Source: a virus
Strand: one strand, 5' to 3'
Length of the DNA: 20,469 bases
Virus record (IMG/VR): IMGVR_UViG_3300007640_000327
Coordinates: 1 to 20,469 of that record
Shown: positions 3,994-20,469 of the stretch, in pieces
Layout: the number at the start of each line of letters is the position of its first letter
Position numbering within the stretch: position 1 is the first letter of the stretch
Translations under genes and position numbers: made by a program
Notes under the pieces: generated by a model
Database searches by the model: none
What the model saw: the letters and a program-made list of their open reading frames with translations, nothing else
What the model was told of the DNA's origin: nothing

Positions 3994-3999
3994 GGCTAC

Positions 4000-4013
4000 C
4001 CAGCTACGGCTGG
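4000..4013 (+). other. Stem-loop with UACG tetraloop between internal-protein and scaffold genes
   Basis: CCAGC (4000-4004) pairs with GCTGG (4009-4013) around the loop TACG, closed by a C-G pair. In RNA this is the very stable C(UACG)G tetraloop hairpin. It lies in the 41-nt gap before the scaffold start. No run of T follows, so it is not a typical intrinsic terminator; an mRNA end-stabilising or processing role is possible. Confidence 0.55.
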
Positions 4014-4034
4014 CCCCAACATAAGGAGAATATA

Positions 4035-4928: not shown

Positions 4929-5173
4929 GCTGTTGACAACAAGTAAATCAACAGTATAACTATAGGCACAGGGACAAAAGCCTCTTTTTGACTACCTTTT
5001 GTCTCGGCCAAATTTCACACAAAAGTCTAAACTAAAAAGAACTACCTGTTCAAGTATAGGCCCAGTATATACTCGGTAGGCCAACTGAGTATTATCTGCA
5101 CCCTAGAAAAACAACAGCCTCTTTATAGGTGTTTAGCTTTATTCATAAGCCAAATATCATGGAGGATTTTCAA
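4929..5173 (+). promoter_or_regulatory. Structured intergenic leader before the capsid gene, with promoter-like elements
   Basis: No gene is visible in this 245-nt gap, the longest in the window. It holds three inverted repeats: 4930-4936 with 4948-4954 (7 bp, perfect); 4971-4980 with 4996-5005 (10 pairs, one G-U); and 5069-5077 with 5084-5092 (9 pairs, one G-U, 6-nt loop). A sigma70-like pair, TTGACA (4933-4938) and TATAAC (4955-4960), with a 16-nt spacer overlaps the first hairpin. TATAGG occurs three times (4961-4966, 5055-5060, 5124-5129), the first as ACTATAGG, the core shared with T7-type phage promoters. AGCCTCTTT is directly repeated at 4979-4987 and 5116-5124. No T-run follows any stem. 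Most likely this region boosts or uncouples capsid expression by a promoter and/or mRNA processing. Which element acts cannot be decided from sequence. Confidence 0.5.
5161..5165 (+). promoter_or_regulatory. Shine-Dalgarno site fixing the capsid start
   Basis: GGAGG lies 8 nt upstream of the ATG at 5174. It decides between three in-frame starts: ATG 5129 and ATG 5159 lie upstream of or overlapping this site and have no comparable sequence before them, so 5174 is the likely start. Confidence 0.85.
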
Positions 5174-6247
5174 ATGGCTTTTACATCCGCAGCAGGTCAC
5201 GGAAATTTACCTAACGGTAATTTCAGTAGTGTGATCTACTCCAAAAAGGTACAGCTTGCATTCCGCAAGTCTACCGTAGTAGGAGATATTACAAACTCTG
5301 ATTATTTCGGAGAAATCAGTGCCCAAGGTGATACAGTTAAGATCATCAAGGAACCTGAAATTTCGGTCAGCTCTTATGCTCGTGGCACACAGATCACAGC
5401 ACAAGATTTGGACGATGAGGATTTCTCTCTAGTCGTTGATAAGGCTAACTATTATGCCTTCAAGATCGACGATATCGAAGAAGCTCACTCACACGTAAAC
5501 TTCATGGATCTTGCGACCAACCGTGCGGCATACCGTTTGGCTGACCAGCATGACCAAGAAGTTCTAGGTTACCTATCAGGTTATAAACAGTCTGCACTAC
5601 ATGGTGCTGCAGATACTGTGAATGATACTGTAAACGGTACTAAAGCAGTAACAACTGCAGGTTCAGACGAATTGCTTTCTTCAATGAAGTTGAAGAAGGG
5701 TGACTTTGGTAACATCACAACTGCTTCTGCAGGTGACCACTCAATCCCAATCGCAGCTCGTTTACCAGGTGCAACAGATTTACCAACTGCTACGATTTCA
5801 CCAGCAATGATGGTGGCTCGTATGGGTCGTCTACTTGACCAACAACAAGTTGACACTCAAGGTAGATGGATTGTCGTTGATCCAGTATTTATGGAAATCC
5901 TTCGTGACGAAGATTCACGTTTCCTAAATGCTGATTACGGTGAATCAGGTGCTCTACGTAACGGTCTAGTCTTGAACAACTTCCACGGTTTCCGTGTATA
6001 CAGCTCAAGCAACCTACCTTCAGTAGGTACTGGCCCTGCAACAACTGGTACAGCTAACCAGAACACTAACTATGGTGTTATCGTTGCAGGTCATGACTCA
6101 GCAGTAGCAACTGCAGAGCAGATCAGTAAGACTGAAACATACCGTGATCCAGACAGCTTTGCTGACATCGTTCGTGGTATGCACCTATACGGTCGTAAGA
6201 TTCTTCGTCCAGAAGCAATCACAACTGCTAAATATAACTTGGCGTAA
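5174..6247 (+). CDS. Major capsid protein
   Basis: A 357-residue protein that builds the icosahedral head shell. The start at 5174 is chosen over the upstream in-frame ATG at 5129 because GGAGG precedes it by 8 nt and because MAFTSAAGHGNLPNG is a natural capsid N-terminus. The protein follows the scaffold and shows HK97-fold-like features: a short flexible N-arm; FRKSTVVGDITNSDYFGEI and GDTVKIIKEPEISV (beta hairpin and loop); a central helical spine region around NRAAYRLADQHDQEVL; then a beta-rich part with WIVVDPVFMEIL and GFRVYSSSNLP, which is typical of the A-domain of phage coat proteins. There is no delta domain or N-terminal protease signal that I can see, consistent with a separate scaffold. 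It contains no cysteine. Family assignment is by pattern and synteny. Confidence 0.88.
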   Translation: MAFTSAAGHGNLPNGNFSSVIYSKKVQLAFRKSTVVGDITNSDYFGEISAQGDTVKIIKEPEISVSSYARGTQITAQDLDDEDFSLVVDKANYYAFKIDDIEEAHSHVNFMDLATNRAAYRLADQHDQEVLGYLSGYKQSALHGAADTVNDTVNGTKAVTTAGSDELLSSMKLKKGDFGNITTASAGDHSIPIAARLPGATDLPTATISPAMMVARMGRLLDQQQVDTQGRWIVVDPVFMEILRDEDSRFLNADYGESGALRNGLVLNNFHGFRVYSSSNLPSVGTGPATTGTANQNTNYGVIVAGHDSAVATAEQISKTETYRDPDSFADIVRGMHLYGRKILRPEAITTAKYNLA

Positions 6248-6261
6248 GGGAGGATTGACTT

Positions 6262-6672
6262 ATGGCTAAATCTACTTCTTTGCTTTCAAAAGCAGTCATG
6301 GTTGAAAAGGAAGTTGAACTTCCAACTTCAACTGGTACAGTAACAGGTCCAACTGTTGCAGCAGGTACTCTTGTACTAGCAGCAGGTGTTGAGTTGATTG
6401 ATGCAATGGACTCAGCAGACTACGATGTTACAGTTACTGATGGCACAACTACATTTATGGCTGCTACAGCTGTAGACAGTGGTTCTGCAGGTGACTTCGC
6501 ATTCGGTACTCAAACACAGGGTATCATTGCTTCAGAAGACACCATTGACGTAACAGGTACTGCAGGTGCTGCTCCAGCAGCAACAGTGACTGCTCGTGTA
6601 TGGGCAATCGTTGTTGATGTAAATGAAGCAACTAAAGGTGCTGACGAAGTTGATCGTGACTATCTTGCATAA
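6262..6672 (+). CDS. Small beta-rich protein, likely head decoration protein
   Basis: A 136-residue protein encoded 14 nt after the capsid gene, with GGGAGG (6248-6253) 8 nt before the ATG. After a short N-terminal stretch it is dominated by Ala, Thr, Gly, Val and Asp in alternating beta-strand patterns (TGTVTGPTVAAGTLVLAAGV, YDVTVTDGTTTFMAA), and ends with an acidic tail. It has no catalytic motif, signal peptide, membrane helix or cysteine. Proteins of this size and composition immediately after the capsid gene are often head decoration or capsid-stabilising proteins. I do not recognise a specific family, so the role rests on position and composition. A hairpin lies just after its stop codon. 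Confidence 0.6.
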   Translation: MAKSTSLLSKAVMVEKEVELPTSTGTVTGPTVAAGTLVLAAGVELIDAMDSADYDVTVTDGTTTFMAATAVDSGSAGDFAFGTQTQGIIASEDTIDVTGTAGAAPAATVTARVWAIVVDVNEATKGADEVDRDYLA

Positions 6673-6685
6673 CTGATTAAACTTT

Positions 6686-6707
6686 AGGGGCTGGGCAACT
6701 GGCCCCT
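6686..6707 (+). terminator. GC-rich stem-loop after the decoration gene, possible weak terminator
   Basis: AGGGGC (6686-6691) pairs with GCCCCT (6702-6707), extended inward by a T-G pair, around an 8-nt loop. It is followed by only TTTA, so termination would be partial at best. The position between head genes and head-tail connector genes suits attenuation that keeps capsid and decoration transcripts more abundant than connector transcripts. Confidence 0.35.
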
Positions 6708-6732
6708 TTAGGCTATCTGAAGGATTTTTGTA

Positions 6733-7464
6733 ATGGCAAATTACGTTACACTAGTTAATCAACTACTTACTAGACTAAATGAAGTTACTCTTGCTACAAC
6801 AGGCAGTGGCTTTGATGATGTACGTAACGTACAAGCATTAGCTAAACAAGCTATTAACAACTCCATTAGAAATATCCTACAGACAGGTCAGGAATGGCCT
6901 TTCTTAAAAACTACATATACTCAGACATTGACTGCAGGTACAAGACAGTATGATTTTCCTGCAGATTTTGCTACGGTTGACTGGGACACTTTTTATATTA
7001 AAGAGTTAGGCTCTGCAAGTAATACACCTAGCTACTTGCCAACTATTTCTTTTGAAGAGTATACTCAAAGATATCGTGGAATAGATGATCAAAGTGATTC
7101 TGGATCTGGTGTATCTGCTCCACAAAGAGTTTATCAAACATACGAAAGTAAGTTTGGTGTAACTCCTGTTCCAAATGATGCTTATGAAATAGAGTACGTA
7201 TATTGGACATTCCCTGCAGATCTTTCTGCCTATGATGATACAGCAGTTATTCCTGACAGATTTAATCATGTAATCATTGACGGTGCTATGATGTACATGA
7301 TGAGATTTAGATCAAATGATCAAAGTGCTGCTTTACACCAGCAAAGCCTTCAAGAAGGTATTCGTTCTATGAGACGTATTCTTATGGATGATCCACTAGA
7401 TATTAGATCTACAGTTATTCAAAGAAATAAATCGTTTAGCAATACTATGAGCACTATCGTCTAA
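6733..7464 (+). CDS. Head-tail adaptor protein (P22 gp4 / T7 gp11-like role)
   Basis: A 243-residue protein expected to sit as a ring below the portal and connect it to the tail nozzle. GAAGGA (6719-6724) precedes the ATG by 8 nt. The N-terminal half is helical (VTLVNQLLTRLNEVTLATTG, then QALAKQAINNSIRNILQTGQ), followed by a tryptophan-containing strand region (EWPFLKTTYTQTLTAGTRQY) and DFPADFATVDWDTFYIKE. That order, helices then a small beta domain then a C-terminal helical region, is characteristic of podovirus adaptor proteins. The C-terminus (MMYMMRFRSNDQSAALHQQS onward) is helical and ends in a flexible arm that could dock on the portal. Its TAA stop overlaps the next ATG by one base (TAATG at 7462-7466), coupling its translation to the nozzle. 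It has no cysteine. Sequence pattern and synteny both support the call. Confidence 0.75.
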   Translation: MANYVTLVNQLLTRLNEVTLATTGSGFDDVRNVQALAKQAINNSIRNILQTGQEWPFLKTTYTQTLTAGTRQYDFPADFATVDWDTFYIKELGSASNTPSYLPTISFEEYTQRYRGIDDQSDSGSGVSAPQRVYQTYESKFGVTPVPNDAYEIEYVYWTFPADLSAYDDTAVIPDRFNHVIIDGAMMYMMRFRSNDQSAALHQQSLQEGIRSMRRILMDDPLDIRSTVIQRNKSFSNTMSTIV

Positions 7465-9014
7465 TGCCTGAAAATTTAGCTTCCTTTAAAGTATTTGCTG
7501 AAGGTGGATTGAACCTGAACAGGGACGTGTTGTCTCAAGGGGAAAGACAACCTGGTTCTGCTATTTCCTTACTTAATTACGAACCTGCTATAACTGGTGG
7601 ATATAGACGTGTCAGTGGTTACACCAACGACTATGGCACAGTACCTGGTGATAGCTCTGGTAGTGTACTTGGTGTAGCAGTAGCTGCTGGTATTAACGAT
7701 GGTATTCTTGCTGCACGTAAGCCTTCTTCAGGTAACAACTACTTACACTACTGGGATGCTACAGCAGAGTCTTGGACAGCAGTAACTACTTCTGGTTCAC
7801 CTACAATGACAGGTGTAACAAAAGTAAGATTTACTAGGTTTAACTGGGGGACAGCAAAGGTTATCCTGACAGATGGTGTAAACCCTGCAGCTACCTACGA
7901 TGGTACAACTTACACCCAGATTACCCATGCTAATGCTCCTACAGATCCTAAGTTTGCTGCAGTATTCAAGAACCATATGTGGCTTGCAGGTGATCCTAGT
8001 GAACCTCATAACTTGTATTTCAGTGCACCTACAGACGAAACCAAGTGGGCACCTGCAGATGGTGCTGGTGTAATCAACGTAGGTTTTCCTATTGTATCAA
8101 TCAAACCGTTTCGTGATTCTCTGTTTGTATTTGGTACGAACAACATTAAAAGGATTGTAGGAAACAACATCTCAGACTGGGCTTTACAGCACGTAACAGA
8201 TGACCTTGGTTGCCTAGCATCAGATAGTGTTATTGAGATTGGTGGTGACCTAATCTTTTTATCACAGGATGGTATGAGACCTATCTCAGGTACAGATAAG
8301 ATTGGTGACGTTAACTTGGAAACACTAACCAAGAACATCCAATCTTTTATTTCTGATGTTGTGTTTAATAACGATCTTGATGCTGTCTCTTCTGTAATCA
8401 TCAGAGGTAAATCTCAGTTTAGATTATTCTATAACGTAGAAAATGGGAATGCACTTCTTGGTGGACTACGTATGGGACAACAGGGTGGCATTGGCTTTGA
8501 GTTTGGTCAGATGATTGGTATTGAGGCCACTTGTGCTGACAGTGGATACATCGACAAAGAAGAATATGTCATTCATGGGGACACTTCAGGTAAAGTCCAC
8601 AGACAAGAATCAGGTAATAGCTTTGGTGGAAATAACATCGTAAGCCTTTACCAAACACCATTCTTGCACATGCAAGATCCAGAGCAACGTAAGATTATTC
8701 ATACTGTTGCTACTTACCTTAGATCAGAAGGTGATAACGAGATCGTTATGTCGGTTGTATTTGACTACGATGATACCACCATTCTTAATCCAACTAACTT
8801 TACTTTAAGCACTGAAGGTGCTGCTGCATATTATAACGAAGCTGTCTTTAATGACTCTTCAACTATTTGGAGTGGTAACCCATCCCCTGTTCAAAGGGTG
8901 AATGTTTCAGGCTCAGGTAAATCAGTTTCTTTTAGATATGTTACAAATGACACGAATGCATCACACAGTATCCAAGGACTTGTTGTGACGTTTGGAGTGG
9001 GGGATAGATTATAA
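7464..9014 (+). CDS. Tail nozzle / stabilization protein (P22 gp10 or T7 gp12-like role)
   Basis: A 516-residue protein likely forming the hexameric, beta-propeller-containing nozzle of the short tail. The ATG overlaps the adaptor stop by one base with no clear Shine-Dalgarno sequence, so it is probably translated by reinitiation. The N-terminus (FAEGGLNLNRDVLSQGERQP) and a Tyr-Gly-rich segment naming the first propeller strands (ISLLNYEPAITGGYRRVSGY) are typical of this family. In the middle are DSLFVFGTNNIKRIVG and DDLGCLASDSVIEIGGDLIF followed by LSQDGMRPISG, a recurrent motif in phage nozzle proteins. The C-terminal third is beta-rich and ends in a small jelly-roll-like region. Only about two cysteines are present, against dozens in the fiber that follows. 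The stop codon abuts the next ATG directly. The role is inferred from recognised motifs plus its place after the adaptor. Confidence 0.75.
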   Translation: MPENLASFKVFAEGGLNLNRDVLSQGERQPGSAISLLNYEPAITGGYRRVSGYTNDYGTVPGDSSGSVLGVAVAAGINDGILAARKPSSGNNYLHYWDATAESWTAVTTSGSPTMTGVTKVRFTRFNWGTAKVILTDGVNPAATYDGTTYTQITHANAPTDPKFAAVFKNHMWLAGDPSEPHNLYFSAPTDETKWAPADGAGVINVGFPIVSIKPFRDSLFVFGTNNIKRIVGNNISDWALQHVTDDLGCLASDSVIEIGGDLIFLSQDGMRPISGTDKIGDVNLETLTKNIQSFISDVVFNNDLDAVSSVIIRGKSQFRLFYNVENGNALLGGLRMGQQGGIGFEFGQMIGIEATCADSGYIDKEEYVIHGDTSGKVHRQESGNSFGGNNIVSLYQTPFLHMQDPEQRKIIHTVATYLRSEGDNEIVMSVVFDYDDTTILNPTNFTLSTEGAAAYYNEAVFNDSSTIWSGNPSPVQRVNVSGSGKSVSFRYVTNDTNASHSIQGLVVTFGVGDRL

Positions 9015-12000
9015 ATGGCAGGTTATACAAGACAGAGTGTAGCTGATATTGTTTCTGGTCAGGTTATTAAAGCTGAACCAATCAACAACGAATTAAATCA
9101 GGTACTAGCTGCATTCAATGCAAGCACAGGACACAAACATGATGGCACTTCAGCAGAAGGTGCTTACATTCCAACTATCTCTGATACTAACAACTATAAC
9201 AAGGTTGTAATTGATACAACTAACAACAGAATTAATTTCTTCACTAATGTTGGTAATGCAGCAGTAGAGCAGGTAAGGATACAAGATGGAGCTATTGTTC
9301 CTGTCACTGATGAAGATATTGATCTGGGTTCTCCGACTGCTGAGTTCAAAGATCTTTACATTGATGGTGTGGGTTATATCGACACTCTGGCGGTACATGA
9401 AAATGCTACTATTACGGGTAACCTTACCGTTAATGGGAATACTACTCTTGGTAGTGACGATAGTGATACTGTTACAGTAAATGCTGATGTTGCCTCAGAC
9501 CTTATCCCTTCTGCAGATGCAACATACGATTTGGGTGCTACAGGTAGTGAATGGAATGATGCTTACATTACTGGTACAGCAAACATTGATAGCCTTGTAG
9601 CTGACACAGCAGACATTAATGGTGGTACTATCGATGGTACTACTATTGGTGCTACTACCCCTGCTGCTGCTGACTTCACCACAATGGATGCATCTGGTAA
9701 TGCTACTGTCGGTGGTACACTTGGTGTAACAGGTAACACAACACTGTCTGGTACTCTTGGAGTTACAGGTGTTTCTACTTTCTCTGATACAGTCTGTGCA
9801 CCTAACCTAAAAGCCACAGGAACCTCAACTCTTAGCACAGTAGACATTAATGCAGGTAATATTGACAATACTGTTATTGGTGCCACTACTCCTGTTGCAG
9901 GTAGTTTTACTACAGTTAGTACGTCTGGACAGGGTACTTTTGCTACAGTAGATATCAATGGGGGTACTATTGACGGTGCTACTATTGGTGCTACTACAGC
10001 ATGTCCTATAACAGGTACGACTGTTGATGGTACAATTATTACAGCAAGCACTTGTTTTGCAGGTAATGTCTGTGGTTCTGTCACTGGTGACGTAACAGGA
10101 AACCTTACAGGTAATGCTGCAGGTTGCCATACAGGAAACTTTGATGGTACTGTAGGGGCTACTACAGCTTGCCCTATAACAGGTACTACTGTTACTGCTA
10201 ACACTTGTTTTGTTGGATGTGTAGTAGGTAATGTAACAGGAGATGTTACTGGAAATCTTACTGGAAATGCTGCAGGTTGTCACACAGGTAATTTTGACGG
10301 TACTGTTGGTGCTACGACTGCATGTCCTGTAACTGCTACAACAATTGATGGTACTGTAATATGTGCAAGCACTTGCTTAGATGGACCTTTAGTAGGTAAT
10401 GTAACAGGCGATGTCACTGGTAATGTAAATTCAACAGGAATTTCTTGCTTTACAAGCCTTAAATTACAAGGTGATATGAATGCTAATAGTAATAAAATTA
10501 CAAACTTAGCAGATCCTGTTTCTGATTCTGATGCAGCCACAAAATTGTATGTCGATAATGCAGTTGAAGGTTTGGATGTAAAAGGATCTGTTAAAGTTGC
10601 TACAACTGCAAACATTACTTTAAGTGGTACTCAGACTATTGATGATATTGCAGTAGTTGCAGACGACAGGGTTCTTGTCAAAGACCAAAGTACAGCTTCA
10701 GAAAATGGCATATATGTAGTTGCTGCAGGTGCTTGGTCCAGATCAGATGATGCAGATACCTTTGACAAACATGCAGGAGCATTCTTCTTTGTTGAAGAGG
10801 GTACAACAAATGCTGATAATGGTTTTGTTGGTACTGTGGATACAGGTGGTACTCTTGACACTACAGATATCACTTTCGTACAATTCTCAGGTGCAGGGCA
10901 GATTACAGCAGGTACTGGTCTCACTAAGTCTGGCAATACTATTAACGTTGTTACTGCAGACTCTGGTAGAATTGTAACAAATGCTGACAGTATTGATCTT
11001 GCTACAACAGGAGTAAGTGCAGGAACTTATAAGTCTGTTACTACAGATGTTTATGGACGTATTACAGGTGGGACAAACCCAACTACTCTTTCTGGGTATG
11101 GCATTACTGATGCTTACACAAACACCTGCACAGATACACTTTTAGATGCTAAGGTAGATCTTGCAGGAGACACAATGACTGGTGACCTAGCAATGGGTGC
11201 CAACTGTGTTACTTCTACTGCTACACCTGCTACAGATGATACCTTAACTCGTAAAGGTTACGTTGATACACAGGATGCTTTAAAACTAAACTTATCAGGT
11301 GGTACTATGACTGGTGCCATTGATATGGGTTCTAGTAAGATAACCACAACGTATACTCCAACTGACAATGCCGATCTCACAACAAAAACATACGTTGACG
11401 GTATTTTAGGTTCTGCAACTGCAGCAGCTACTTCTGCTACCAATGCTGCTACCTCAGAGACTAATGCAGCCACATCAGAAACAAATGCTGCTAACTCAGC
11501 TACTAATGCTGCTGCTTCAGCTACTTCGGCTGCCGATTCTTATGATGACTTTGATGACAGATACCTTGGTGACAAAGCTTCAGACCCATCAGTAGACAAC
11601 GATGGTGATGGACTTATTACTGGTGCATTGTATTGGAATACTACAGACAATGCTCTAAAAGTATACACAGGATCTGCTTGGGCTTCTGCAGCATTTACAC
11701 TGGGTGATGCTCTTACTTGTATCCAAGAAGATACTTCTCCTGTCTTAGGTGGTAATCTTAATGCAGGTACAAACTGCATCTATGGTACAGGTGTAGTCTG
11801 TGTCTCTAACCTTTGTGGTACACTGACAGGTAACGTTACTGGTAATGTTACTGGTACTGTAAGTGATATCAGTAACCATGACACAGGTGACCTAACAGAA
11901 GGTTCAAACCAGTACTTCACAACAGGCAGAGTAGACAGCCACCTAACAGGTGGTACAGGTGTTACTTACACAACTGGTACAATAGCTATTGGTCAGTCTG

Positions 12001-13922
12001 TTGGTACAGCAGACAATGTATGCTTTGGTTCTGTCTGTGTTACAGCTAACCCAACTTTAGCTTGCCAACTTGCAACTAAAGAGTACGTTGACACGATTGC
12101 TGCTGCTGGTATCCACTACCATGACCCAGTACGTGTTGAATCACCAGACAGTGCAGGAAACCTAAATGCTACCTATGACAATGGTACAGCAGGTGTAGGT
12201 GCTACACTTACTAACAATGGTACACAAGCTGCCCTAGTTATTGATGGTGTAACCCTAAACACAAATGATCGTGTTCTTATCTACAGCCAAACCAATGGTT
12301 ACGAAAATGGTGTTTACACAGTTACCAACACTGGTTCAGCTTCAACTAACTGGGTTCTTACTCGTGCTACAGATGCTGACAGTTATGGTGCTTCAGATCA
12401 GAATGCACTAGGTGAAGGTGATGCATTCTTCGTAAAAGAAGGTGACACTGGTGCTGGTGAGTTGTACGTGATGAATACATCTGGTACAATTACATTCGGT
12501 ACTACAAACATTAGCTTTACTGTCGTAGCTGAGACTGCTGTTTACGATGCAGGTAATGGTCTGACACTAGATGGTACAACCTTTGCTGTAGGAGCAGGAA
12601 CAGGTGTTACAGTCAATGCTAACACAGTTGCTATCGGACAGGCAGTAGGTACAGGCGATACAGTAACCTTTGCCAGAGTATGTGCTCCTGTCACAGGTGC
12701 TGTAACTGGTAATGCTACTACTGCAACTTGCTGGCAAACTGGTAGAACAATCAGCCTTACAGGGGCAGTAACTGGATCTGTTACAGGTGTTAATGGTTCA
12801 GGTAATGTAAGTATTGCAACGACTGCTACTTCTGATCCTACACTTTGTATCTGTGGGGATGCTACAGGTTCTGCTACATTCACAAACCTTGGTAATGCTA
12901 ACCTTAGCCTTACTATTGCAGACGATAGCCACAACCATACAGTAGCTAACGTTGATGGACTAGCAACATGTTTGTCAGGTAAAGCTGGAACAAATGGTTC
13001 TACATCTAATAACTTTAGTGCAGCCTGTCTTTGTGCAGCTAACTGTTTCCAAGCTCCATACATTGCAGTAAACTGTGGTTGTGCAGTAAACTGCTGGAAA
13101 TCACCAGTTGTCTGTGGTTCAACTGCTCTTAGGGGTGCCTGTGCAGCTTTAACTACCTGTGTTTGCACACCATACCTAGTCTCATCAGGAATTGTTTGTG
13201 CAGGTACTTGTTTAAGAGGACAAACTTGTCTGAACACACCTATTGCTTGTGGATCAAGCTGTGTTATATCTCCTACTATCTGTGGTACTTCTTGGCTTGC
13301 AGTAGGTGGCAGATGTATCTGTGAAACTGGTGGTGAGTATGGAACAATTTCTGTTACTACTGGTAATAATAACTGGTGTGGTTACTCCATTGCTAACAAC
13401 TACGTGTTCATGGCATGTGGTGGATCGATGGGTCTGTACAATGATATTACAAATGAATGGGCACTTCTACATTGTTGCAACGGTTCAACATGTTTATACC
13501 ACAATGGAACAGCTCAATTTGCAACTACTGGTTACGGTTCTTATACATCAGGTTGTAGCTGTGCATCAAACTGCTTTATCTCACCAGTAGTATGTGGTGT
13601 TACAACCAGAGGTACAACAGCTTGCTTCACTGACTTCAACTCTACTTCTGACTGCAGGTGCAAAGAGAACATTGCTACAGTAGATGATGCATACAATAAG
13701 ATCGGTCAGATCAGAGGTGTGAACTATAACTGGAAAGATTCTGGCAAGTACACAATGGGTGTTGTTGCTCAAGAAGTAGAAGAAGCATTCCCAGAACTTG
13801 TTACAACAGATGACGATGGTTACAAATCAGTCAACTATAATGGCTTGGTAGGTGCACTTATTGAAACTGTGAAGTGTCTACAAGGTAAAGTAGAGGAACT
13901 AGAGAATGGCTCTAAAGGTTAG
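9015..13922 (+). CDS. Long modular tail fiber with cysteine-rich distal part and C-terminal S74 chaperone domain
   Basis: A 1635-residue receptor-binding fiber. The ATG follows the nozzle stop without a gap; GGAG at 8994 and the G-run after it can serve as ribosome site. Modules in order: virion-attachment N-terminus (1-120, YTRQSVADIVSGQVIKAEPI); short beta repeats of the TGNLTVNG / TIDGTTIGATTP type (about 130-475); a conserved fiber domain at about 521-625 (ATTANITLSGTQ, RVLVKDQ, ENGIYVV); a second related domain at about 1032-1175 (HYHDPVRVE, ENGVYTV); between them five tandem 7-residue Ala/Thr/Ser/Asn repeats (805-839), predicted coiled coil; a distal region (1318-1550) with about 33 of the protein's roughly 58 cysteines; and an S74-type intramolecular chaperone (about 1543-1635) with S1545, D1546 and K1550, the spacing of the family's Ser-Lys self-cleavage dyad, followed by GVVAQEVEEAFPELV. 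Such chaperones help trimerise beta-helical fibers and may be released afterwards. Confidence 0.85.
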   Translation: MAGYTRQSVADIVSGQVIKAEPINNELNQVLAAFNASTGHKHDGTSAEGAYIPTISDTNNYNKVVIDTTNNRINFFTNVGNAAVEQVRIQDGAIVPVTDEDIDLGSPTAEFKDLYIDGVGYIDTLAVHENATITGNLTVNGNTTLGSDDSDTVTVNADVASDLIPSADATYDLGATGSEWNDAYITGTANIDSLVADTADINGGTIDGTTIGATTPAAADFTTMDASGNATVGGTLGVTGNTTLSGTLGVTGVSTFSDTVCAPNLKATGTSTLSTVDINAGNIDNTVIGATTPVAGSFTTVSTSGQGTFATVDINGGTIDGATIGATTACPITGTTVDGTIITASTCFAGNVCGSVTGDVTGNLTGNAAGCHTGNFDGTVGATTACPITGTTVTANTCFVGCVVGNVTGDVTGNLTGNAAGCHTGNFDGTVGATTACPVTATTIDGTVICASTCLDGPLVGNVTGDVTGNVNSTGISCFTSLKLQGDMNANSNKITNLADPVSDSDAATKLYVDNAVEGLDVKGSVKVATTANITLSGTQTIDDIAVVADDRVLVKDQSTASENGIYVVAAGAWSRSDDADTFDKHAGAFFFVEEGTTNADNGFVGTVDTGGTLDTTDITFVQFSGAGQITAGTGLTKSGNTINVVTADSGRIVTNADSIDLATTGVSAGTYKSVTTDVYGRITGGTNPTTLSGYGITDAYTNTCTDTLLDAKVDLAGDTMTGDLAMGANCVTSTATPATDDTLTRKGYVDTQDALKLNLSGGTMTGAIDMGSSKITTTYTPTDNADLTTKTYVDGILGSATAAATSATNAATSETNAATSETNAANSATNAAASATSAADSYDDFDDRYLGDKASDPSVDNDGDGLITGALYWNTTDNALKVYTGSAWASAAFTLGDALTCIQEDTSPVLGGNLNAGTNCIYGTGVVCVSNLCGTLTGNVTGNVTGTVSDISNHDTGDLTEGSNQYFTTGRVDSHLTGGTGVTYTTGTIAIGQSVGTADNVCFGSVCVTANPTLACQLATKEYVDTIAAAGIHYHDPVRVESPDSAGNLNATYDNGTAGVGATLTNNGTQAALVIDGVTLNTNDRVLIYSQTNGYENGVYTVTNTGSASTNWVLTRATDADSYGASDQNALGEGDAFFVKEGDTGAGELYVMNTSGTITFGTTNISFTVVAETAVYDAGNGLTLDGTTFAVGAGTGVTVNANTVAIGQAVGTGDTVTFARVCAPVTGAVTGNATTATCWQTGRTISLTGAVTGSVTGVNGSGNVSIATTATSDPTLCICGDATGSATFTNLGNANLSLTIADDSHNHTVANVDGLATCLSGKAGTNGSTSNNFSAACLCAANCFQAPYIAVNCGCAVNCWKSPVVCGSTALRGACAALTTCVCTPYLVSSGIVCAGTCLRGQTCLNTPIACGSSCVISPTICGTSWLAVGGRCICETGGEYGTISVTTGNNNWCGYSIANNYVFMACGGSMGLYNDITNEWALLHCCNGSTCLYHNGTAQFATTGYGSYTSGCSCASNCFISPVVCGVTTRGTTACFTDFNSTSDCRCKENIATVDDAYNKIGQIRGVNYNWKDSGKYTMGVVAQEVEEAFPELVTTDDDGYKSVNYNGLVGALIETVKCLQGKVEELENGSKG
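9621..9998 (+). repeat. Three dispersed copies of a TIDGTTIGATTP-type module in the fiber gene
   Basis: Copies begin near 9621 (GGTIDGTTIGATTPAAADF), 9852 (AGNIDNTVIGATTPVAGSF) and 9960 (GGTIDGATIGATTACPITG). They are in frame, diverged at DNA level, and separated by other short beta modules. In the third copy the proline position of ATTP is replaced by ACP. They are probably repeated strands of a trimeric fiber shaft. Confidence 0.65.
9987..10430 (+). repeat. Tandem cysteine-containing repeats in the fiber shaft
   Basis: Two and a half in-frame units start at 9987 (56 codons), 10155 (51 codons) and 10308 (partial, to about 10430). Each begins GATTACP and carries TCF or TCL, then VTGDVTGN; the first two end AAGCHTGNFDGTV. 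Cysteines sit at equivalent places in each unit, so they existed before the duplication or were kept aligned by conversion or selection. Synonymous differences show that the copies are not recent. Confidence 0.7.
11427..11531 (+). repeat. Five tandem 21-bp units encoding a 7-residue Ala/Thr/Ser/Asn repeat
   Basis: The units read ATSATNA, ATSETNA, ATSETNA, ANSATNA and AASATSA (fiber residues 805-839). The alanines at heptad spacing predict a trimeric coiled-coil segment linking the two halves of the fiber. It is followed by a common fiber module (YDDFDDRYLGDKASDP, ending ALYWNTTDNALKVYTG). Confidence 0.75.
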
Positions 13923-14121
13923 TGGTACAACTGTTATTGACGACAGTAAAAACATTCCTTCAGGAACACCATCAGTGCAAGGGACGATAGTGACAGCTAA
14001 CGTCCTTACTGCACCTTCTGGTACGACAGCACAAAGACCTGCATCCCCAAACACAGGTCACATCTTTTTTGATACAACTCTTGGTACAATAGTTTCTTAC
14101 AATGGAACCGAATGGGTTTGA
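13906..14121 (+). CDS. Short stand-alone fiber module, paralog of the next gene's N-terminus
   Basis: A 71-residue protein whose ATG lies 17 nt inside the end of the fiber gene, in another frame; GAGG just upstream can act as ribosome site. It aligns over its whole length with the first about 69 residues of the following 1150-residue protein: MALKVSGTTVIDDSKN against MAYKINGTTVVDNSRN, then APSGTTAQRPASPNTG against VPSGNTASRPASPATG, then FFDTTLGTIVSYNGTEW against YFDTDLGSLISYDGTAW. This module is common at the N-termini of fiber-type proteins in environmental phages, where it probably docks the protein to the virion. Here it ends right after the tryptophan. It has no cysteine, whereas the paralog has five in the variable stretch. 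It may be a minor structural protein, or the remnant of a fiber gene that lost its distal part. Confidence 0.7.
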   Translation: MALKVSGTTVIDDSKNIPSGTPSVQGTIVTANVLTAPSGTTAQRPASPNTGHIFFDTTLGTIVSYNGTEWV

Positions 14122-14151: not shown

Positions 14152-17100
14152 ATGGCATATAAGATTAATGGCACTACGGTGGTCGATAACAGCAGGAACG
14201 TCTGTGCCTGTTGTGTTACCTCGTGTTGTATTACAGCTAGTACACGTATGGATGTTCCTTCAGGTAACACAGCCAGTAGGCCAGCATCTCCTGCTACTGG
14301 GTCTATCTACTTTGATACAGACTTGGGTTCTCTTATATCTTACGATGGGACTGCCTGGGCTGCTGTAGGTGGAGGATCTGGTTTAGACTTAGAAGAAATT
14401 GTAACTAGTGATGCAGATGCTTGGGCATTTATTGCTCCTTCAGCACAATGTGCATGTAGAACATATAACCCTCAGTGTCATGGTTATGCTTGTTATAAAC
14501 ATGGAGATTTAAAAGATTATTCTTTGTACTCTGTAGCTACAGATACTCCTTGTTTTCATACACTTCTAGCATTTCAAAACTACGGTAATGGTAGTTGTGC
14601 TGTACAATTATATTGTAGAGACTCACAACAATACATTTGCTGTGTAGAATGTGGGGAATACACAAAATGTGTAACTGCCCTTCCCTGTAGAACTAATAAT
14701 TGTTGTATTGGTATGATTGTTGGTTTGGAGCCAAACTGCAATGCATCATTAAATACTAGATTTAATGTTAAAGGACATTTTCCAATTCAGGTTGGACCTG
14801 ATGGATCTGTAAGAATTTTTGCTGTAGACAGATGTGTCCAAACTGGAACAAACCATTGCCTAGTAGGAGCTAACTGCTGGTATCATATGGGGGAATACTT
14901 TGTTAATACAAAGGGTGGAGTTTCCTTAAATGAAAACACTAGTCCTTGGGCTTGTGCTCTCAACATTTGTAAATGTACTAGAGTACCTTTTGGCTATATA
15001 GCCACTCCAAGAATTGCAGGTAAAACTCGTGATGGATGGTTAGCTTACTTTAGAGGAAGAATACATTTTAGAGATGATATTGGTTCATCTCCAAATATGT
15101 GTTGCCCTGTTAATATTCCTATTTTAAGTAGCACGTATGGAACTGGACTTGAAGAGGCTTGTGATTACTTCTTTATTACAAAACCTGGCCCTGGTGTTCC
15201 TTACTTCAATGCTCCTATGTTTCCTGTTTTAACCACAGGCTTGTGTTATTGTTATAACACATCTACACAGCTATGTGATACTGTTTACAATTGTTGTATG
15301 GCAAATCAGATACCTTTTAAAAGTACTATAAATGGTTTAGTTGGTTGTAATGAATTTAGCTTTTATAACTCCAGAACAGACATTCCTATGGGTGGTAGTG
15401 CTTATAATATAAACAATTATGATTTATGTATTTGTTGTTACTCAGATGGCGTTTGTAATGCTGCATTCTCTGTAGGATGTTGTGCTTTTGCAATACAAAG
15501 ACTTGTTGGGCATATTGGAGTATGTTGTATATGTTTTAGTAATTTTGCACAAGATTCACAAGGACTAATGTTTCCTTCAAGAGATGGATGTTACTTACAC
15601 AGAATTTTTATATGTCAGCAAACATGTGCCTCAACTTCTGTCTGCTCCTGTAAAAGGTCTACAAGCAGCTCAGGTGCTAATAACTGCTGGGGGCGTTTTG
15701 ACAGACTTTACCAAACAAAAATTGACAGGCTTAACCAATGTGTTGTACAACACAAAGGATTCTGTGGTGTAGATAAGCTTGCTTGGGAATGTAATGTTTT
15801 AGGATGCAGTGCTTTATCTGAACCTAGACAAACTTGGGTATCTGAGTATCCACAACTTTTGTGTTCAATTGGTGCTGCTATAGATCCAAATAGGGATCAC
15901 ACAGATCTTACAACATACATGAGATTTAATCATTCTGGTAGCAATTATACATGTCTCAGAACCATGCCACTTGAAGAACAACACCATGTTATTTGGAGTA
16001 AGGTTTGTTCTAACAGAGGGTTCCTCTTTTATGATAATTGTTGTGGAGAGATGGGGTACTCAGTCTTTGATTGTAACAAAGATCAACTAGACTTTACTTA
16101 CAATTTTTGTAGATCTTTAGGAGTTCATCCAAACAATCCAGTAGCTAGACATTTAGTAGATTTATTTGGTACACCTCCAGTTTGTATGTCTACCTCTTGT
16201 GTTGGCTGTTTTGCTTGTTTCTTTGGTGGGTGTTCCTCTGGGTGGACTGCCTACAGAGAATGTTTGTGTGCTGTTACTGGAAACTGTAGTGTACCTTTAA
16301 CTGCTAAATGTTTAGGGTATAAGCTTTACTTTGGTGGCTGTTCATGTATGTACAAATTTGTCCCACCAGGAACTGGTTCTCAGTTTTCAATGGTTCATAA
16401 CAGGTATAACGACCATTTAGTTTTCTTTAGAGCTATAGGGTGTAGTATCTCTAGTTCTGAAAATTACCCTAGTGAGATCTCTTGGATAGGAGCTATTTGT
16501 TGGGATCTACATAACCAATGTGTCTCTAAAGTAAATACTTTCTGGCCTCCTCCCCTTGATATATTACAGTATCAGTGTAAAGCATACTACGACATGCACC
16601 AGTGTGCTATAGCTTGCTCTACTTGTTATTTTACGTTATGTTCTCCTACCCATAAACCCCAGGGTTGTGGTTATGGTGGTTGTTTCTGTGAGTGTCACAG
16701 ACCTTGCAACCAAGGTGTTAAAGTTATTCCCTATGGAAACTATAAGACCTGGATTGACAGTGGTTGTACTGACTATGGTGGGCTTGTTATAAGTTCTCAC
16801 TTAGGGGGAGCAGGGTCATGTCATGGTAATCTAAACAATCTACAAATACGTAGAGATACTACTTGTTGTAATTACTTCTGTTATTATTACTGCACTGCTG
16901 TAGCATCTACTGATCCTTGTATAAGAAGTTGTAACTCAAACTTAATTATGAATATCGTTCCTGAAGCAGCTATGGTAGCTAGGGTTCCTTTTACTAAACC
17001 TTTAGAATGTATTGGCTGGAGATCCGAACCAGACTTTGCAAAGATGTTTAATGCTGTTATATCACCTCAGTGCTGTGCTTGCTACTTTACAAATTTAATG

Positions 17101-17604
17101 ACTTACGGTGGCACTGAACACCAGTGTATTACAAGACTTGCTAACTGTATGAATTTTAAAGTAGGTGAGTGTCAAACTTGTCAGGCATTAACATGTTGGA
17201 CCTGTGGTCCATACGGTAGTGTTGACTGTATGAGATGGCACTATACTCTAAAAATAGTAACTAGTAATTGTTGTTTATTTTCTAACTGTTGTTTTGTTAC
17301 AGGTCAAAGTAATGGAACTTGGTGTCCTGTTCCATTAAGTTGTTACTATGCTTATTTAACTACGTGTGCTCGTACTCATAACTGTGCACAAGTATATAAG
17401 TGTGTCCAACCATGTCACTTAAATAAAAGTGAAACATCTAAATTGTATATACACCCTTACATAGAAAGTGATGCTCCAGTAGTGGCACACAACTACTCTA
17501 GAAATAATAGAGCAGATGGACGATATATACCTCTTGCTACAGGTGAACACCCAAGAGAATGGTTCCACAGATTCTGGAATGAGTGTATAATCTGTTGTTG
17601 CTAA
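14152..17604 (+). CDS. Extremely cysteine-rich fiber-like protein, unknown fold
   Basis: A 1150-residue protein with GGAG (14141-14144) 7 nt before its ATG. Residues 1-72 are the virion-docking fiber module shared with the preceding small gene; a Gly-rich linker follows (GGGSG near 73). The remaining protein resembles no family I know. By hand count it has about 118 cysteines (about 10%), with around 15 vicinal Cys-Cys pairs, many CxC motifs, a dense cluster at GCGYGGCFCECHRPC and a C-terminus ending CIICCC. It is also rich in Tyr, Asn, Gly, Phe and Trp. Cys-poor islands occur at 27-98 and in the last 60 residues before the terminal cluster (LYIHPYIESDAPVVAHNYSR). No S74 chaperone, lectin motif, signal peptide or membrane segment is seen. 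Placement after the long fiber and the N-terminal module suggest a second fiber or tip protein; disulfide crosslinking or metal binding is inferred from composition only. The uninterrupted frame argues against a frameshift artefact. Confidence 0.8.
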   Translation: MAYKINGTTVVDNSRNVCACCVTSCCITASTRMDVPSGNTASRPASPATGSIYFDTDLGSLISYDGTAWAAVGGGSGLDLEEIVTSDADAWAFIAPSAQCACRTYNPQCHGYACYKHGDLKDYSLYSVATDTPCFHTLLAFQNYGNGSCAVQLYCRDSQQYICCVECGEYTKCVTALPCRTNNCCIGMIVGLEPNCNASLNTRFNVKGHFPIQVGPDGSVRIFAVDRCVQTGTNHCLVGANCWYHMGEYFVNTKGGVSLNENTSPWACALNICKCTRVPFGYIATPRIAGKTRDGWLAYFRGRIHFRDDIGSSPNMCCPVNIPILSSTYGTGLEEACDYFFITKPGPGVPYFNAPMFPVLTTGLCYCYNTSTQLCDTVYNCCMANQIPFKSTINGLVGCNEFSFYNSRTDIPMGGSAYNINNYDLCICCYSDGVCNAAFSVGCCAFAIQRLVGHIGVCCICFSNFAQDSQGLMFPSRDGCYLHRIFICQQTCASTSVCSCKRSTSSSGANNCWGRFDRLYQTKIDRLNQCVVQHKGFCGVDKLAWECNVLGCSALSEPRQTWVSEYPQLLCSIGAAIDPNRDHTDLTTYMRFNHSGSNYTCLRTMPLEEQHHVIWSKVCSNRGFLFYDNCCGEMGYSVFDCNKDQLDFTYNFCRSLGVHPNNPVARHLVDLFGTPPVCMSTSCVGCFACFFGGCSSGWTAYRECLCAVTGNCSVPLTAKCLGYKLYFGGCSCMYKFVPPGTGSQFSMVHNRYNDHLVFFRAIGCSISSSENYPSEISWIGAICWDLHNQCVSKVNTFWPPPLDILQYQCKAYYDMHQCAIACSTCYFTLCSPTHKPQGCGYGGCFCECHRPCNQGVKVIPYGNYKTWIDSGCTDYGGLVISSHLGGAGSCHGNLNNLQIRRDTTCCNYFCYYYCTAVASTDPCIRSCNSNLIMNIVPEAAMVARVPFTKPLECIGWRSEPDFAKMFNAVISPQCCACYFTNLMTYGGTEHQCITRLANCMNFKVGECQTCQALTCWTCGPYGSVDCMRWHYTLKIVTSNCCLFSNCCFVTGQSNGTWCPVPLSCYYAYLTTCARTHNCAQVYKCVQPCHLNKSETSKLYIHPYIESDAPVVAHNYSRNNRADGRYIPLATGEHPREWFHRFWNECIICCC

Positions 17605-17681: not shown

Positions 17682-18608
17682 ATGAAAACTGTTTTTGTAA
17701 TTGATGGTGGAGCAGGTAGGGCTATAGCAGCTATTCCTGCTCTCATCAAATACTCAAAGAAAAACCAAAACTTTAAAGTTATGGTTATGGGTTGGGACTC
17801 TCTGTACTGGGGTATCCCTGAGCTACACGATAAAGTATTTAATCCAGATCAAAAAGGTGCCTTTGAGCAATTCTTTATGGATGCTGACAGGGTTATCTCT
17901 CCAGAACCATACAGAGTTCCAGGCTACTACAAACAAGAAAAGTCTCTTGCTGAAGCTTTTGATTACTTGATCAACGAGACTGATGATCACTCTGACCTTG
18001 GTGCTCCTGTTCTTAAAACAAATAGGCAAGAAGAACTACAGGCTGCTAACTTTATGCAATCTGTAAGACAGCAACAACAGAAACAGAAGACTATTGTTAT
18101 ACAACCTTTCGGTAGATCTATTGAAAAACCACAAGAAGGTGTTTTATTAGATCAGTCTTCTCGTTCTATTAATCCAGATACGTACCTTAAACTAGTAAAG
18201 AAACTAGCAACAAAGTATAACCTAGTTTTGTTTGCTGAGAAAAACTTCTGGATGCCTGAAGATACGTACACCATGAAGCCTGAAGCAGACCTTCGTATGT
18301 GGTCAGCATTTATTGATGCAGCAGATTACTTCATTGGTTGTGACTCTGCAGGTCAACATATGGCAAGAGCATTTAATAAACCAGGTACAGTAATTATAGG
18401 ATCTACTTTTTCTATAAATACTAGTTATCCAAAACACTTTAATATTGTAGAAAGGGATGTTCCTAAAGTATACTCACCTATCCGTATATCAGGTCTTGAG
18501 TCACACTTAGCTGACAGGTTCAACGAGTCTACAGTAGAGTTTAGTGATGAAGAAATTAATACGATGTATGCTGACATTGTGAAAGACATCGAGAAGAAGG
18601 TGAAGTAA
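17682..18608 (+). CDS. GT9-like glycosyltransferase (heptosyltransferase family)
   Basis: A 308-residue, soluble GT-B-type enzyme expected to transfer a sugar, by family analogy a heptose from an ADP-heptose-like donor, to a glycan acceptor. The N-terminal Rossmann-like start (VFVIDGGAGRAIAAIPALIK) occupies the place of the acceptor-site Gly loop of GT9 enzymes. The C-terminal half contains AADYFIGCDSAGQHMARAFN (about 213-232) with D221, S222 and H226, the counterpart of the family's DSG...H donor-binding motif, followed by KPGTVIIGSTF and a proline turn. Length is near the lower end for heptosyltransferases. It is separated by one base from the carbamoyltransferase start, so the two are likely co-expressed. 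The neighbouring GmhB-like gene on the opposite strand supports a heptose theme. Donor and acceptor cannot be told from sequence: they may be a virion protein, a host lipopolysaccharide or a nucleotide sugar. Confidence 0.72.
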   Translation: MKTVFVIDGGAGRAIAAIPALIKYSKKNQNFKVMVMGWDSLYWGIPELHDKVFNPDQKGAFEQFFMDADRVISPEPYRVPGYYKQEKSLAEAFDYLINETDDHSDLGAPVLKTNRQEELQAANFMQSVRQQQQKQKTIVIQPFGRSIEKPQEGVLLDQSSRSINPDTYLKLVKKLATKYNLVLFAEKNFWMPEDTYTMKPEADLRMWSAFIDAADYFIGCDSAGQHMARAFNKPGTVIIGSTFSINTSYPKHFNIVERDVPKVYSPIRISGLESHLADRFNESTVEFSDEEINTMYADIVKDIEKKVK

Positions 18609-18609
18609 A

Positions 18610-20325
18610 ATGAATATCCTAGCAATTAATCCAGGTCATAATGGTTCTGCTGCCTTACTAATAGATGGTGAACTAGAGTTTTACGTAGAAGAAGAAAGAC
18701 TGTCTCGTAGTAAATATGATGGTAACCCTTTTATGGGAATGCTTGAATCACTTAAGTATGGGGTAGATACTTTAATTATTGGTGGTACACATCCAGACTT
18801 ACCACAGCTTCCTTGGACTGGCGAAGATCCCTATACTGCTATTATTCGTAAACATAATCCAAATCTTAAAGTAATAAAAGCTGGACATATTCATCATATA
18901 GGCCATGCTGCTGCAGCTTTCTTTAACTCAGGGTTTGAAGATGCTGCTGCTGTTATTGTAGATGGTTCTGGAACTAGACAAGATATAAAACTTAATGAGG
19001 AAGGTCAAACAAATCCAGGGTTTGAAACAGAGAGTATATTTAACTGTAGTTACTCTGATGGCATAGTTCCTGTGTTTCAATCTTTTGGTGGTAACTTTGA
19101 TACCATGCCTGTCTCCTCTGATAACATTGAAATGGATAATGCTATCACACTTGTTAAAGCCTATGAAGCTGTATCAGACTATTTAGGTTTTGGTTTTATT
19201 GAAGCAGGTAAGACAATGGGTCTTGCACCATACGGTAAGTATGATGAGATGATACCTAGCCTGTTCTTTAATGGTAGAGGAAACAAGAATGTATTTATCC
19301 CTAATTACCCTGCTGGTGCTCATATTGATCATGGTCGTCACCCCTATCTAAGTCTTAAAGAAGATCCAAAGGCTTGGCATAATGATCCTAGTAAGGTAAC
19401 AGAAGCAGCTAAAAACTTAGCTTGGGCAGTACAAGATGAAACACAAACTCTTGTTGGTGACTTGATTGAGAAAGCTGTAAAGAAAACTGATAAGAAGAAT
19501 ATTGTTATTGCTGGTGGGTATGGTCTTAACTGTGTAGCAAACTACTACTACAAGAAACGTTTTCCTGACCTAAACATCTACGTAGATCCTATCTCTCATG
19601 ATGGTGGTACAGCAATCGGTCTAGCTCAATTAGTCCACTACACAGAAACTAAAGATGAAACTATTCGTCCACTAAGTACTTTGTATCTTGGCCCTAAACG
19701 TGAAGAGTCTTACGACTTTGGTGACATTGAAACGACAGAAGTAAAACCTGCTGATGTAGCAAAGCTTATCTCTGAGAAGAATATCGTAGCCTTATACCAA
19801 GGACGTTCTGAGGCTGGCCCTCGTGCACTGGGTAACCGTTCTATCCTTTATGATCCCACAGATCCCAAGGGTAAGGACACTGTGAACAAGGTCAAAGGAC
19901 GTGAGTGGTTCAGACCATTTGCAGGTTCAATGATGCAGGAGTACTTTGAAGAGTGGTTCGAGACATATGGGATGGAAGAGTCACCATTCATGATGTATGC
20001 AATGGACTTCAAGTTAGAGAAGCATGGTGAGTGTCCTGCTATCACACACGTAGATGGTACTTGTCGTATCCAGACTGTGACTAAAGAGCAGAATGAAACA
20101 TACCATACTCTGATAGATGAGTTCCGTAAGATTACTGGTGTACCTATCCTGTTCAACACTAGCTTCAACCTAGCAGGTGAGCCATTAGTAGAAACATTAG
20201 ATGATGCAATGAGAACTATTAAGAACTCAGACATCAACTACTTGTACATACCAGAACAAGGTCTGTTGGTAAAGTATCCCCACAATGACTCAGTAGTTGA
20301 AGAAGAAAAGGAAGAGGCTGCTTAA
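18610..20325 (+). CDS. NodU/CmcH-type O-carbamoyltransferase
   Basis: A 571-residue ATP-dependent enzyme that transfers a carbamoyl group from carbamoyl phosphate to a hydroxyl, usually on a sugar. Both domains are intact. The N-terminal Kae1-like domain has MNILAINPGHNGSAALL, the metal-binding HIHHIGHA (H93, H95, H96, H99), VDGSGT, and GKTMGLAPYGK. The C-terminal YrdC-like domain has GRSEAGPRALGNRSIL (398-413), RPFAGS and LFNTSFNLAGEP (514-525), the family signatures. The length is typical. It starts one base after the glycosyltransferase stop with an AAGGTGAAG ribosome-site region, forming a two-gene unit. Cysteines here fall at ordinary family positions (GLNC), showing that cysteine codons are read normally in this genome. 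The product is probably a carbamoylated sugar on a phage or host glycan; enzymes of this family also occur in other marine phages. The sugar substrate is unknown. Confidence 0.92.
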   Translation: MNILAINPGHNGSAALLIDGELEFYVEEERLSRSKYDGNPFMGMLESLKYGVDTLIIGGTHPDLPQLPWTGEDPYTAIIRKHNPNLKVIKAGHIHHIGHAAAAFFNSGFEDAAAVIVDGSGTRQDIKLNEEGQTNPGFETESIFNCSYSDGIVPVFQSFGGNFDTMPVSSDNIEMDNAITLVKAYEAVSDYLGFGFIEAGKTMGLAPYGKYDEMIPSLFFNGRGNKNVFIPNYPAGAHIDHGRHPYLSLKEDPKAWHNDPSKVTEAAKNLAWAVQDETQTLVGDLIEKAVKKTDKKNIVIAGGYGLNCVANYYYKKRFPDLNIYVDPISHDGGTAIGLAQLVHYTETKDETIRPLSTLYLGPKREESYDFGDIETTEVKPADVAKLISEKNIVALYQGRSEAGPRALGNRSILYDPTDPKGKDTVNKVKGREWFRPFAGSMMQEYFEEWFETYGMEESPFMMYAMDFKLEKHGECPAITHVDGTCRIQTVTKEQNETYHTLIDEFRKITGVPILFNTSFNLAGEPLVETLDDAMRTIKNSDINYLYIPEQGLLVKYPHNDSVVEEEKEEAA

Positions 20326-20469
20326 GGTAGCCTATCCACAAATTGGAGGAGGTTATCGAAAACCTTAGTCTTCTTTCTTAACTTCTCTTTTGAGAACTTC
20401 TTTAGCTCTCCTTCAGTGTCCACCCCATGACCAGTTCTTACTAAGATTGGGGTGGCACCAATTCTCTCA
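20322..20469 (-). CDS. HAD-family phosphatase, GmhB-like, C-terminal end (5' part outside window)
   Basis: On the minus strand a frame is open from the right edge to a TAA at 20324-20322, giving 48 residues: an N-terminal part ERIGATPILVRTGHGVDTEG and an end KTKVFDNLLQFVDRLP. The order, Gly-Ala then a hydrophobic strand LVRTG with a Gly-containing loop, a charged helix and finally a VFDNL strand-helix, is that of the C-terminus of HAD-IIIA phosphatases such as D-glycero-D-manno-heptose 1,7-bisphosphate phosphatase (GmhB) and its relatives. GmhB removes the C7 phosphate in ADP-heptose synthesis, which would fit the nearby GT9-like gene. The catalytic DxD motifs are outside the window. The gene converges on the carbamoyltransferase and their stop codons overlap through the palindrome TTAA (20322-20325). 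HisB-type or other HAD-III phosphatases are alternatives. Confidence 0.6.
   Translation of the reverse strand, partial: ERIGATPILVRTGHGVDTEGELKKFSKEKLRKKTKVFDNLLQFVDRLP

Follow-up and report, generated by a model that had tools for sequence, protein, structure and literature searches.

The 20,469-nucleotide stretch of viral DNA analysed here (IMG/VR record IMGVR_UViG_3300007640_000327; the whole stretch is called the window) raises the question of why a marine phage should encode a tail fiber with 118 cysteines in 1150 residues. The open reading frame (ORF) of this fiber is open from the ATG at 14152 to the stop at 17604, and its translation confirmed both the cysteine content given in the original prediction (10.3 %; 104 TGT and 14 TGC codons) and the CIICCC terminus. 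An assembly or frame error, which that prediction had named as a possible refutation, is very unlikely, since the ORF recurs with 100 % identity on two other contigs of IMG/VR, L001 and L002, whose metagenomes have different numbers. The 11 other, non-fiber ORFs of the window, 3,846 residues in all, contain 7 cysteines. The head, portal and adaptor proteins encoded at 1-9014 are nearly without cysteine, and the phage seems to avoid this residue outside its fibers. About 15 CC pairs and many CxC motifs had also been pointed out as unusual; the counts held, the unusual pattern did not. We found 16 CC pairs (11.8 expected in shuffled sequences, z 1.4), 13 CxC (12.0 expected) and 11 CxxC (12.0 expected), and no clustering of these motifs above chance in the 1150-residue fiber, spacings 1-3 lying within 1.5 standard deviations of the shuffles. 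With CC and CxC at chance for this composition, the protein carries no metal or disulfide signature, and its oddity is the amount of cysteine, not the pattern. Reassignment of the TGT/TGC codons was considered and rejected; normal zinc-finger type cysteine motifs in a related phage (L069:12692-13099) speak against it.

The next gene encodes a 308-residue protein that resembles heptosyltransferases (below, the transferase), and the coupling of this gene to cysteine-rich fibers is almost certain. A scan with the transferase alignment identified at least 587 stretches in IMG/VR, together with seven contigs whose records assign them to bacteria or archaea. Contigs listed under such names as Woesearchaeota, Euryarchaeota and Flavobacteriales (L117-L123) carry the transferase and cysteine-rich genes; they are probably viral sequences that were binned with cells. 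We counted the 94 transferase loci with at least 3 kb of upstream sequence, which span podoviruses, cyanomyoviruses such as P-SSM2 and freshwater phages, and took as the upstream gene one on the same strand of at least 150 residues. This gene had at least 4 % cysteine in 85 of the 94 loci and at least 6 % in 70. Within 6 kb upstream of the transferase, 99 of 343 genes had at least 6 % cysteine, whereas elsewhere in the same loci only 3 of 644 did (Fisher p 6e-46, which overstates the certainty because several contigs are the same phage). After masking of cysteine, the cysteine-rich proteins fell into at least 26 unrelated groups.

A closer comparison was possible among relatives of the phage itself, whose major capsid and tail genes place it with the HMO-2011-type podoviruses: the coat protein is 83 % identical to that of Roseobacter phage CRP-9 and 73 % to that of HMO-2011, and the tail gene preceding the fibers is 69 % identical to that of CRP-1. 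In related podovirus contigs the fibers have 6.6-12.7 % cysteine when the cassette of transferase and heptose genes is present, and none is cysteine-rich without it. All of at least 14 HMO-2011-type phages with the cassette have cysteine-rich fibers. The isolates CRP-1, -2, -9, -13, -603 and HMO-2011 have no transferase in the whole record, and no cysteine-rich gene was found in the structural region read in these six. The resulting distribution, 14/0 with the cassette against 0/9 without it, gives a Fisher p of 1.2e-6, uncorrected for relatedness; the counts include three fragments of less certain transferase status (L037, L044 and L069). The resident MAGYTRQS fiber has 0-2 cysteines in phages that lack the cassette and 18-58 in many of those that carry it. 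In the window, the only other protein with many cysteines is the 1635-residue first fiber, and the homologous fibers of the CRP phages have 0. On a tree of the tail gene the presence of the cassette changes at least twice, and three times by parsimony. The contigs L047 and L050, with cassette and cysteine-rich tips, branch next to the CRP phages, and in both the resident first fiber has remained without cysteine.

The original prediction knew of no such phage protein family; the papers searched describe none either, but the fiber exemplifies a pattern that is widespread, though undescribed, and includes the isolates P-SSM2, S-SSM7 and S-CAM1. P-SSM2 has two cysteine-rich genes of 10.1 %, S-SSM7 three of 10.6-11.5 %, S-CAM3 three of 8.0-11.6 %, and S-CAM1 and Sf-FS3 three each; the single-cell virus AG-345-O18 has two, with the transferase. 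Aeromonas phage HJ05 has a distant transferase and, directly upstream, a protein of 4.1 % cysteine with nearly all of it in the C-terminal half. Together these phages represent independent lineages in which the pattern occurs. HJ05 has no HldD, and genes for NodU, cupin and Hld proteins were neither annotated nor detected in the stretch; Aeromonas makes heptose itself. A gene for a NodU-type carbamoyltransferase adjoins the transferase in most loci. In S-SSM5, S-CAM8 and S-MS29, NodU lies beside tail fibers that are not enriched in cysteine, and the transferase is absent (from the whole record in S-SSM5 and S-CAM8, from the stretch in S-MS29); cysteine thus tracks the transferase and not NodU. 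An S-CAM8 ORF with 20 cysteines runs antisense to a gene for a helicase. Loci that seemed to have cysteine-rich genes but no transferase were mostly fragments that stop short of the transferase position; one such case was an antisense ORF.

The positions of the cysteines look like the outcome of selection for many exposed thiols instead of particular pairs. Aligned to cysteine-poor homologs, cysteine replaces glutamine at 2.5 times the expected frequency, tyrosine at 2.4, histidine and arginine at 2.0 and serine at 1.6 times, and avoids valine, glycine and proline positions. Among 315 NxAIGxxALxxNTTGxxN repeat units, cysteine occurs at positions 5, 6, 9, 10, 15 and 16, rarely at 12 and 13, and in no unit at the free structural positions 1, 2 and 7 (the search pattern itself fixed positions 0, 4, 11, 14 and 17 and limited 3 and 8). 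The nine members of the fiber's family (P0001) keep the number of cysteines, at 114-145; 11 alignment columns have cysteine in 9/9 members and 111 in only 1/9. Cysteine also has the highest raw pairwise conservation, 0.49, with few invariant columns and an aligner that favours cysteine; we regard this conservation as a mixed result and do not use it as strong evidence.

The transferase belongs to phrog_8954, a PHROG of unknown function, and has weak matches to PF01075 and RfaQ/HepIII. Its AlphaFold2 (AF2) model, built from a 37-sequence alignment, reached a predicted local distance difference test score (pLDDT) of 95.5 and has the glycosyltransferase B (GT-B) fold of the WaaC/WaaF type, with template modelling scores of 0.47-0.60. 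The top PDB matches in Foldseek were E. coli HepII (1psw, 2.7e-10), TibC (3e-9) and WaaC (4e-9). Comparison with the E. coli Waa enzymes by hhalign gave an E-value of 3.9e-7 and aligned the nucleotide-binding C-lobe only. At the N-terminus, Gly12-Asp13 is invariant in the four E. coli proteins, and the phage sequences have Gly12-Arg13 in 37/37, so that GxxGD becomes GxGR.

With WaaC, WaaF and WaaQ (CAZy GT9, PF01075) the phage enzyme shares the GT-B fold and a C-lobe nucleotide motif resembling D-S-x-G-x-H; unlike them, it stays under the Pfam cut-off, has the GxGR change and is linked to fiber genes. A second likeness is to TibC and Aah, bacterial autotransporter heptosyltransferases acting on TibA and AIDA-I; enzymes of this type are dodecamers with an iron site and modify serines in autotransporter repeats (PMC4358343). 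The phage system shares the ADP-heptosyltransferase fold (ADP, adenosine diphosphate) and, as we propose, a dedicated enzyme that uses ADP-heptose as the donor to hyper-heptosylate an adhesin. It differs in having its own heptose genes and a carbamoyltransferase, in a proposed cysteine instead of serine acceptor and in Arg13 at the position of E. coli Asp13, and no autotransporter was noted in the phage loci. Sugar on a cysteine sulfur, proposed for the phage, is known from glycocins (sublancin with SunS, pallidocin), although these peptides are small and non-viral, offer few sites and receive hexoses from their donors. Enzymes of the SunS type belong to a different class of glycosyltransferases. 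In Pseudomonas, a putative carbamoyltransferase, WapO, acts on the heptose of the lipopolysaccharide (LPS) core (PMC8005017), a precedent for the pairing of enzymes in the phage; its target is the LPS core and not a protein, and the likeness to the phage NodU drawn here is one of proposed function.

The remaining genes of the locus are collected in Table 1. The NodU-type protein matched Carbam_trans_C (E 6e-62, 208.5 bits, cut-off 27) and Carbam_trans_N (E 4.5e-20, 72.8 bits, cut-off 24). The GmhB-like gene is cut by the end of the window, and we followed the locus in L002, a longer contig of the same phage (L002 coordinate = window - 5905), where it is followed by genes for HldE adenylyltransferase, HldE kinase, a cupin and HldD. 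The NCBIfam matches there were GmhB 3e-36, rfaE_dom_II 4.5e-29, rfaE_dom_I 1.5e-35 and HldD 9e-66, all under the curated equivalog cut-offs; phosphatase, adenylyltransferase, kinase and epimerase domains are thereby present, with putative exact specificities. No GmhA-like SIS domain (sedoheptulose-7-phosphate isomerase) was found among the genes read in L002, and the cassette has the cupin instead. Podoviruses and cyanophages alike have this cupin (L002:16194-16547; phrog_7851, annotated as cysteine dioxygenase) in their heptose cassettes; it has weak matches to sugar isomerases as well and may be the missing one. The 'phosphoheptose isomerase' of P-SSM2 (L112:23970-24311) reads like a small HAD-type protein with a DIDGT motif, and the name may be wrong. 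The cassettes of S-SSM7 (L113:22977-29964) and Sf-FS3 (L214:12062-15041) additionally contain a second carbamoyltransferase and 2-oxoglutarate-Fe(II) oxygenases, and that of S-SSM7 a tryptophan halogenase; further decoration by these enzymes is possible.

Table 1. Features of the window discussed in the text, with positions in the 20,469-nucleotide stretch.
Feature	Position	Strand	Basis or remark
First tail fiber, 1635 aa, 58 Cys (3.5 %)	9015..13922	+	probably second acceptor
Docking-module-only protein, 71 aa, no Cys	13906..14121	+	52 % identical to residues 1-70 of the Cys-rich fiber
Cys-rich fiber/adhesin, 1150 aa, 118 Cys	14152..17604	+	100 % identical in L001 and L002; nine full-length relatives, 114-145 Cys each
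N-terminal docking module, residues 1-75	14152..14376	+	common to many otherwise different fibers; conserved stretch SRNVCACCVTSCC
Heptosyltransferase-like glycosyltransferase, 308 aa, proposed fiber-Cys S-heptosyltransferase	17682..18608	+	phrog_8954; fold and profile similarity
NodU-type O-carbamoyltransferase, proposed to carbamoylate heptose	18610..20325	+	Pfam domains; phrog_1601 E 1e-150
GmhB-like heptose-bisphosphate phosphatase, 3' end, cut by window end	20322..20469	-	full gene L002:14417-15070 (-)

The docking module predicted ahead of the cysteine-rich part was borne out: residues 37-73 matched a PHROG virion structural family (E 1e-8), residues 1-75 are 70-91 % identical to those of otherwise different fibers, and a scan for the docking-module motif found it in 24 contig stretches. 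The gene of the 71-residue docking-module protein overlaps the end of the 1635-residue fiber gene. When the whole 1150-residue fiber was searched against phage records by tblastn no match was obtained; the tip is too divergent, and genome context was therefore used.

We propose that the transferase probably caps the fiber cysteines with heptose or carbamoyl-heptose, an S-linked hyperglycosylation of the adhesin. The 1150-residue protein would be a receptor-binding tail-fiber tip, with its cysteines as sugar acceptor sites. The phage would supply the synthesis of ADP-heptose through the cupin (likely the sedoheptulose-7-phosphate isomerase), HldE kinase, GmhB, HldE adenylyltransferase and HldD; in the host cytoplasm the heptosyltransferase-like enzyme would move heptose onto the sulfur of exposed fiber cysteines, and the NodU-type enzyme would carbamoylate the sugar. 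The product would be an adhesin with up to about 100 S-linked heptoses or carbamoyl-heptoses per chain, and the capping would also prevent cross-linking of thiols once the virion meets oxygen. The cysteine content, the order of the genes, the likenesses of family and fold, the joint occurrence of transferase and cysteine-rich fibers and the surface-type placement of cysteine are observed; we infer the donor sugar, the thiol acceptor, the carbamoylation of the sugar, the role of the cupin, the presence of the fiber in the virion and the biological benefit. Cysteine glycosylation by the adjacent glycosyltransferase was among the possibilities originally listed; comparative evidence favours it over the disulfide and metal readings, since at least 26 groups adjoin the transferase and relatives without it are cysteine-poor, while we infer the sugar-cysteine linkage.

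Several observations weigh against this proposal. The PF01075 score of the transferase, 17.7 bits, is below the Pfam gathering cut-off of 22, and an invariant Arg13 stands at the position of the E. coli Asp13, a matching read from gapless N-termini (hhalign covered the C-lobe only); it is thus the fold that suggests transferase activity. We take Asp13 of WaaC, the position of the phage Arg13, to be the catalytic base, and a thiol acceptor would presumably need a base less than a hydroxyl would. In TibC the candidate catalytic base is Asp110 (PMC4358343). Among the loci, L173, a 58-kb contig with transferase and NodU and no cysteine-rich gene in the parts examined, is a genuine exception so far; L163, L155, L178, L180, L188 and L190 have no cysteine-rich gene in their fragments, and L164 has only 2.9 % cysteine near the transferase. 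L197, first counted as an exception, has on the same contig, far from the transferase, a 170-residue protein of 7.1 % cysteine with the repeat CxNxSGTYR (L218:554-1063). The correlation between transferase and cysteine is due in part to linked genes being transferred together, the sugar could sit on residues other than cysteine, and the AF2 model of the fiber with 16 relatives was unusable (pLDDT 31.8).

It is conceivable, although unlikely, that the cassette glycosylates serine, threonine or asparagine of the fiber, or modifies the host surface, and that cysteine enrichment is a separate trait of a co-transferred fiber module. TibC, a close fold match, heptosylates serine, and the usual interpretation of glycosyltransferases in phages is that they modify the LPS of the host (PMC7029224). 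This explanation does not sit well with the change of the resident MAGYTRQS fiber from 0-2 to 18-58 cysteines in many phages with the cassette, with the at least 26 groups of cysteine-rich proteins or with the cysteine-poor fibers of the NodU-only cyanophages. As for the host surface, Synechococcus phages carry heptose genes and the LPS of Synechococcus WH8102 contains neither heptose nor 3-deoxy-D-manno-octulosonic acid (KDO) (PMC4515613), which makes the LPS of the host an improbable target in cyanophages. Direct modification of cysteine by NodU or by the 'cysteine dioxygenase' cupin, as S-carbamoylation or oxidation, would agree with the phrog_7851 annotation and with the place of NodU beside most transferases; it is very improbable, as NodU without the transferase goes with cysteine-poor fibers, HJ05 combines transferase and a 4.1 % cysteine fiber with none of NodU, cupin or Hld detected in the stretch, and the cupin also resembles sugar isomerases weakly.

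The two other readings originally offered found nothing specific to support them, the cysteines lying at scattered, variable, surface-type positions without enrichment of CC, CxC or CxxC. A disulfide-hardened fiber, its thiols reduced in the cytoplasm and cross-linked within or between chains after lysis, would fit the high cysteine content, the raw conservation of cysteine in the P0001 family and its 11 invariant columns; we consider it quite unlikely given chance spacings, the 111 columns with cysteine in a single relative and the scattered surface positions in the repeats, and it leaves the tracking of a heptosyltransferase-like gene by cysteine unexplained. Many thiols at a distal fiber position might also suggest a metal-thiolate protein (Fe, Zn or Cu), for example a Trojan-horse ligand for metal uptake, but metallothionein-like spacing is lacking, the sequences form at least 26 unrelated groups and the constant linkage is to sugar genes, not metal genes, which makes this reading hardly credible.

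Searches of the literature, which did not cover subscription journals, yielded no paper on cysteine-rich phage fibers or on cysteine glycosylation by phages, and the paper on HMO-2011-type phages mentions neither. Somewhat less firmly than the capping itself, we favour the view that this is the first virus-encoded system of protein S-glycosylation, in which a transferase without the usual Asp base, with the phage's own ADP-heptose genes and carbamoyltransferase, would place carbamoyl-heptose on dozens to more than 100 cysteines per chain, and many unrelated groups of fibers would have evolved surface cysteines as acceptors. If true, this would be a new class of protein modification for virology, as such a protein coating is not known from any virus, and it would extend over at least 587 stretches in IMG/VR and include several phages that can be cultured; existing isolates permit testing now. 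phrog_8954 would become a genetic marker for modified receptor-binding proteins, which bears on host range and on the expression of fibers in the laboratory. The modification would explain how proteins with 100 thiols survive in oxygenated water, and in cyanophages and further marine phages the heptose genes, commonly taken to change host surfaces, would instead serve to decorate the phage's own adhesins.

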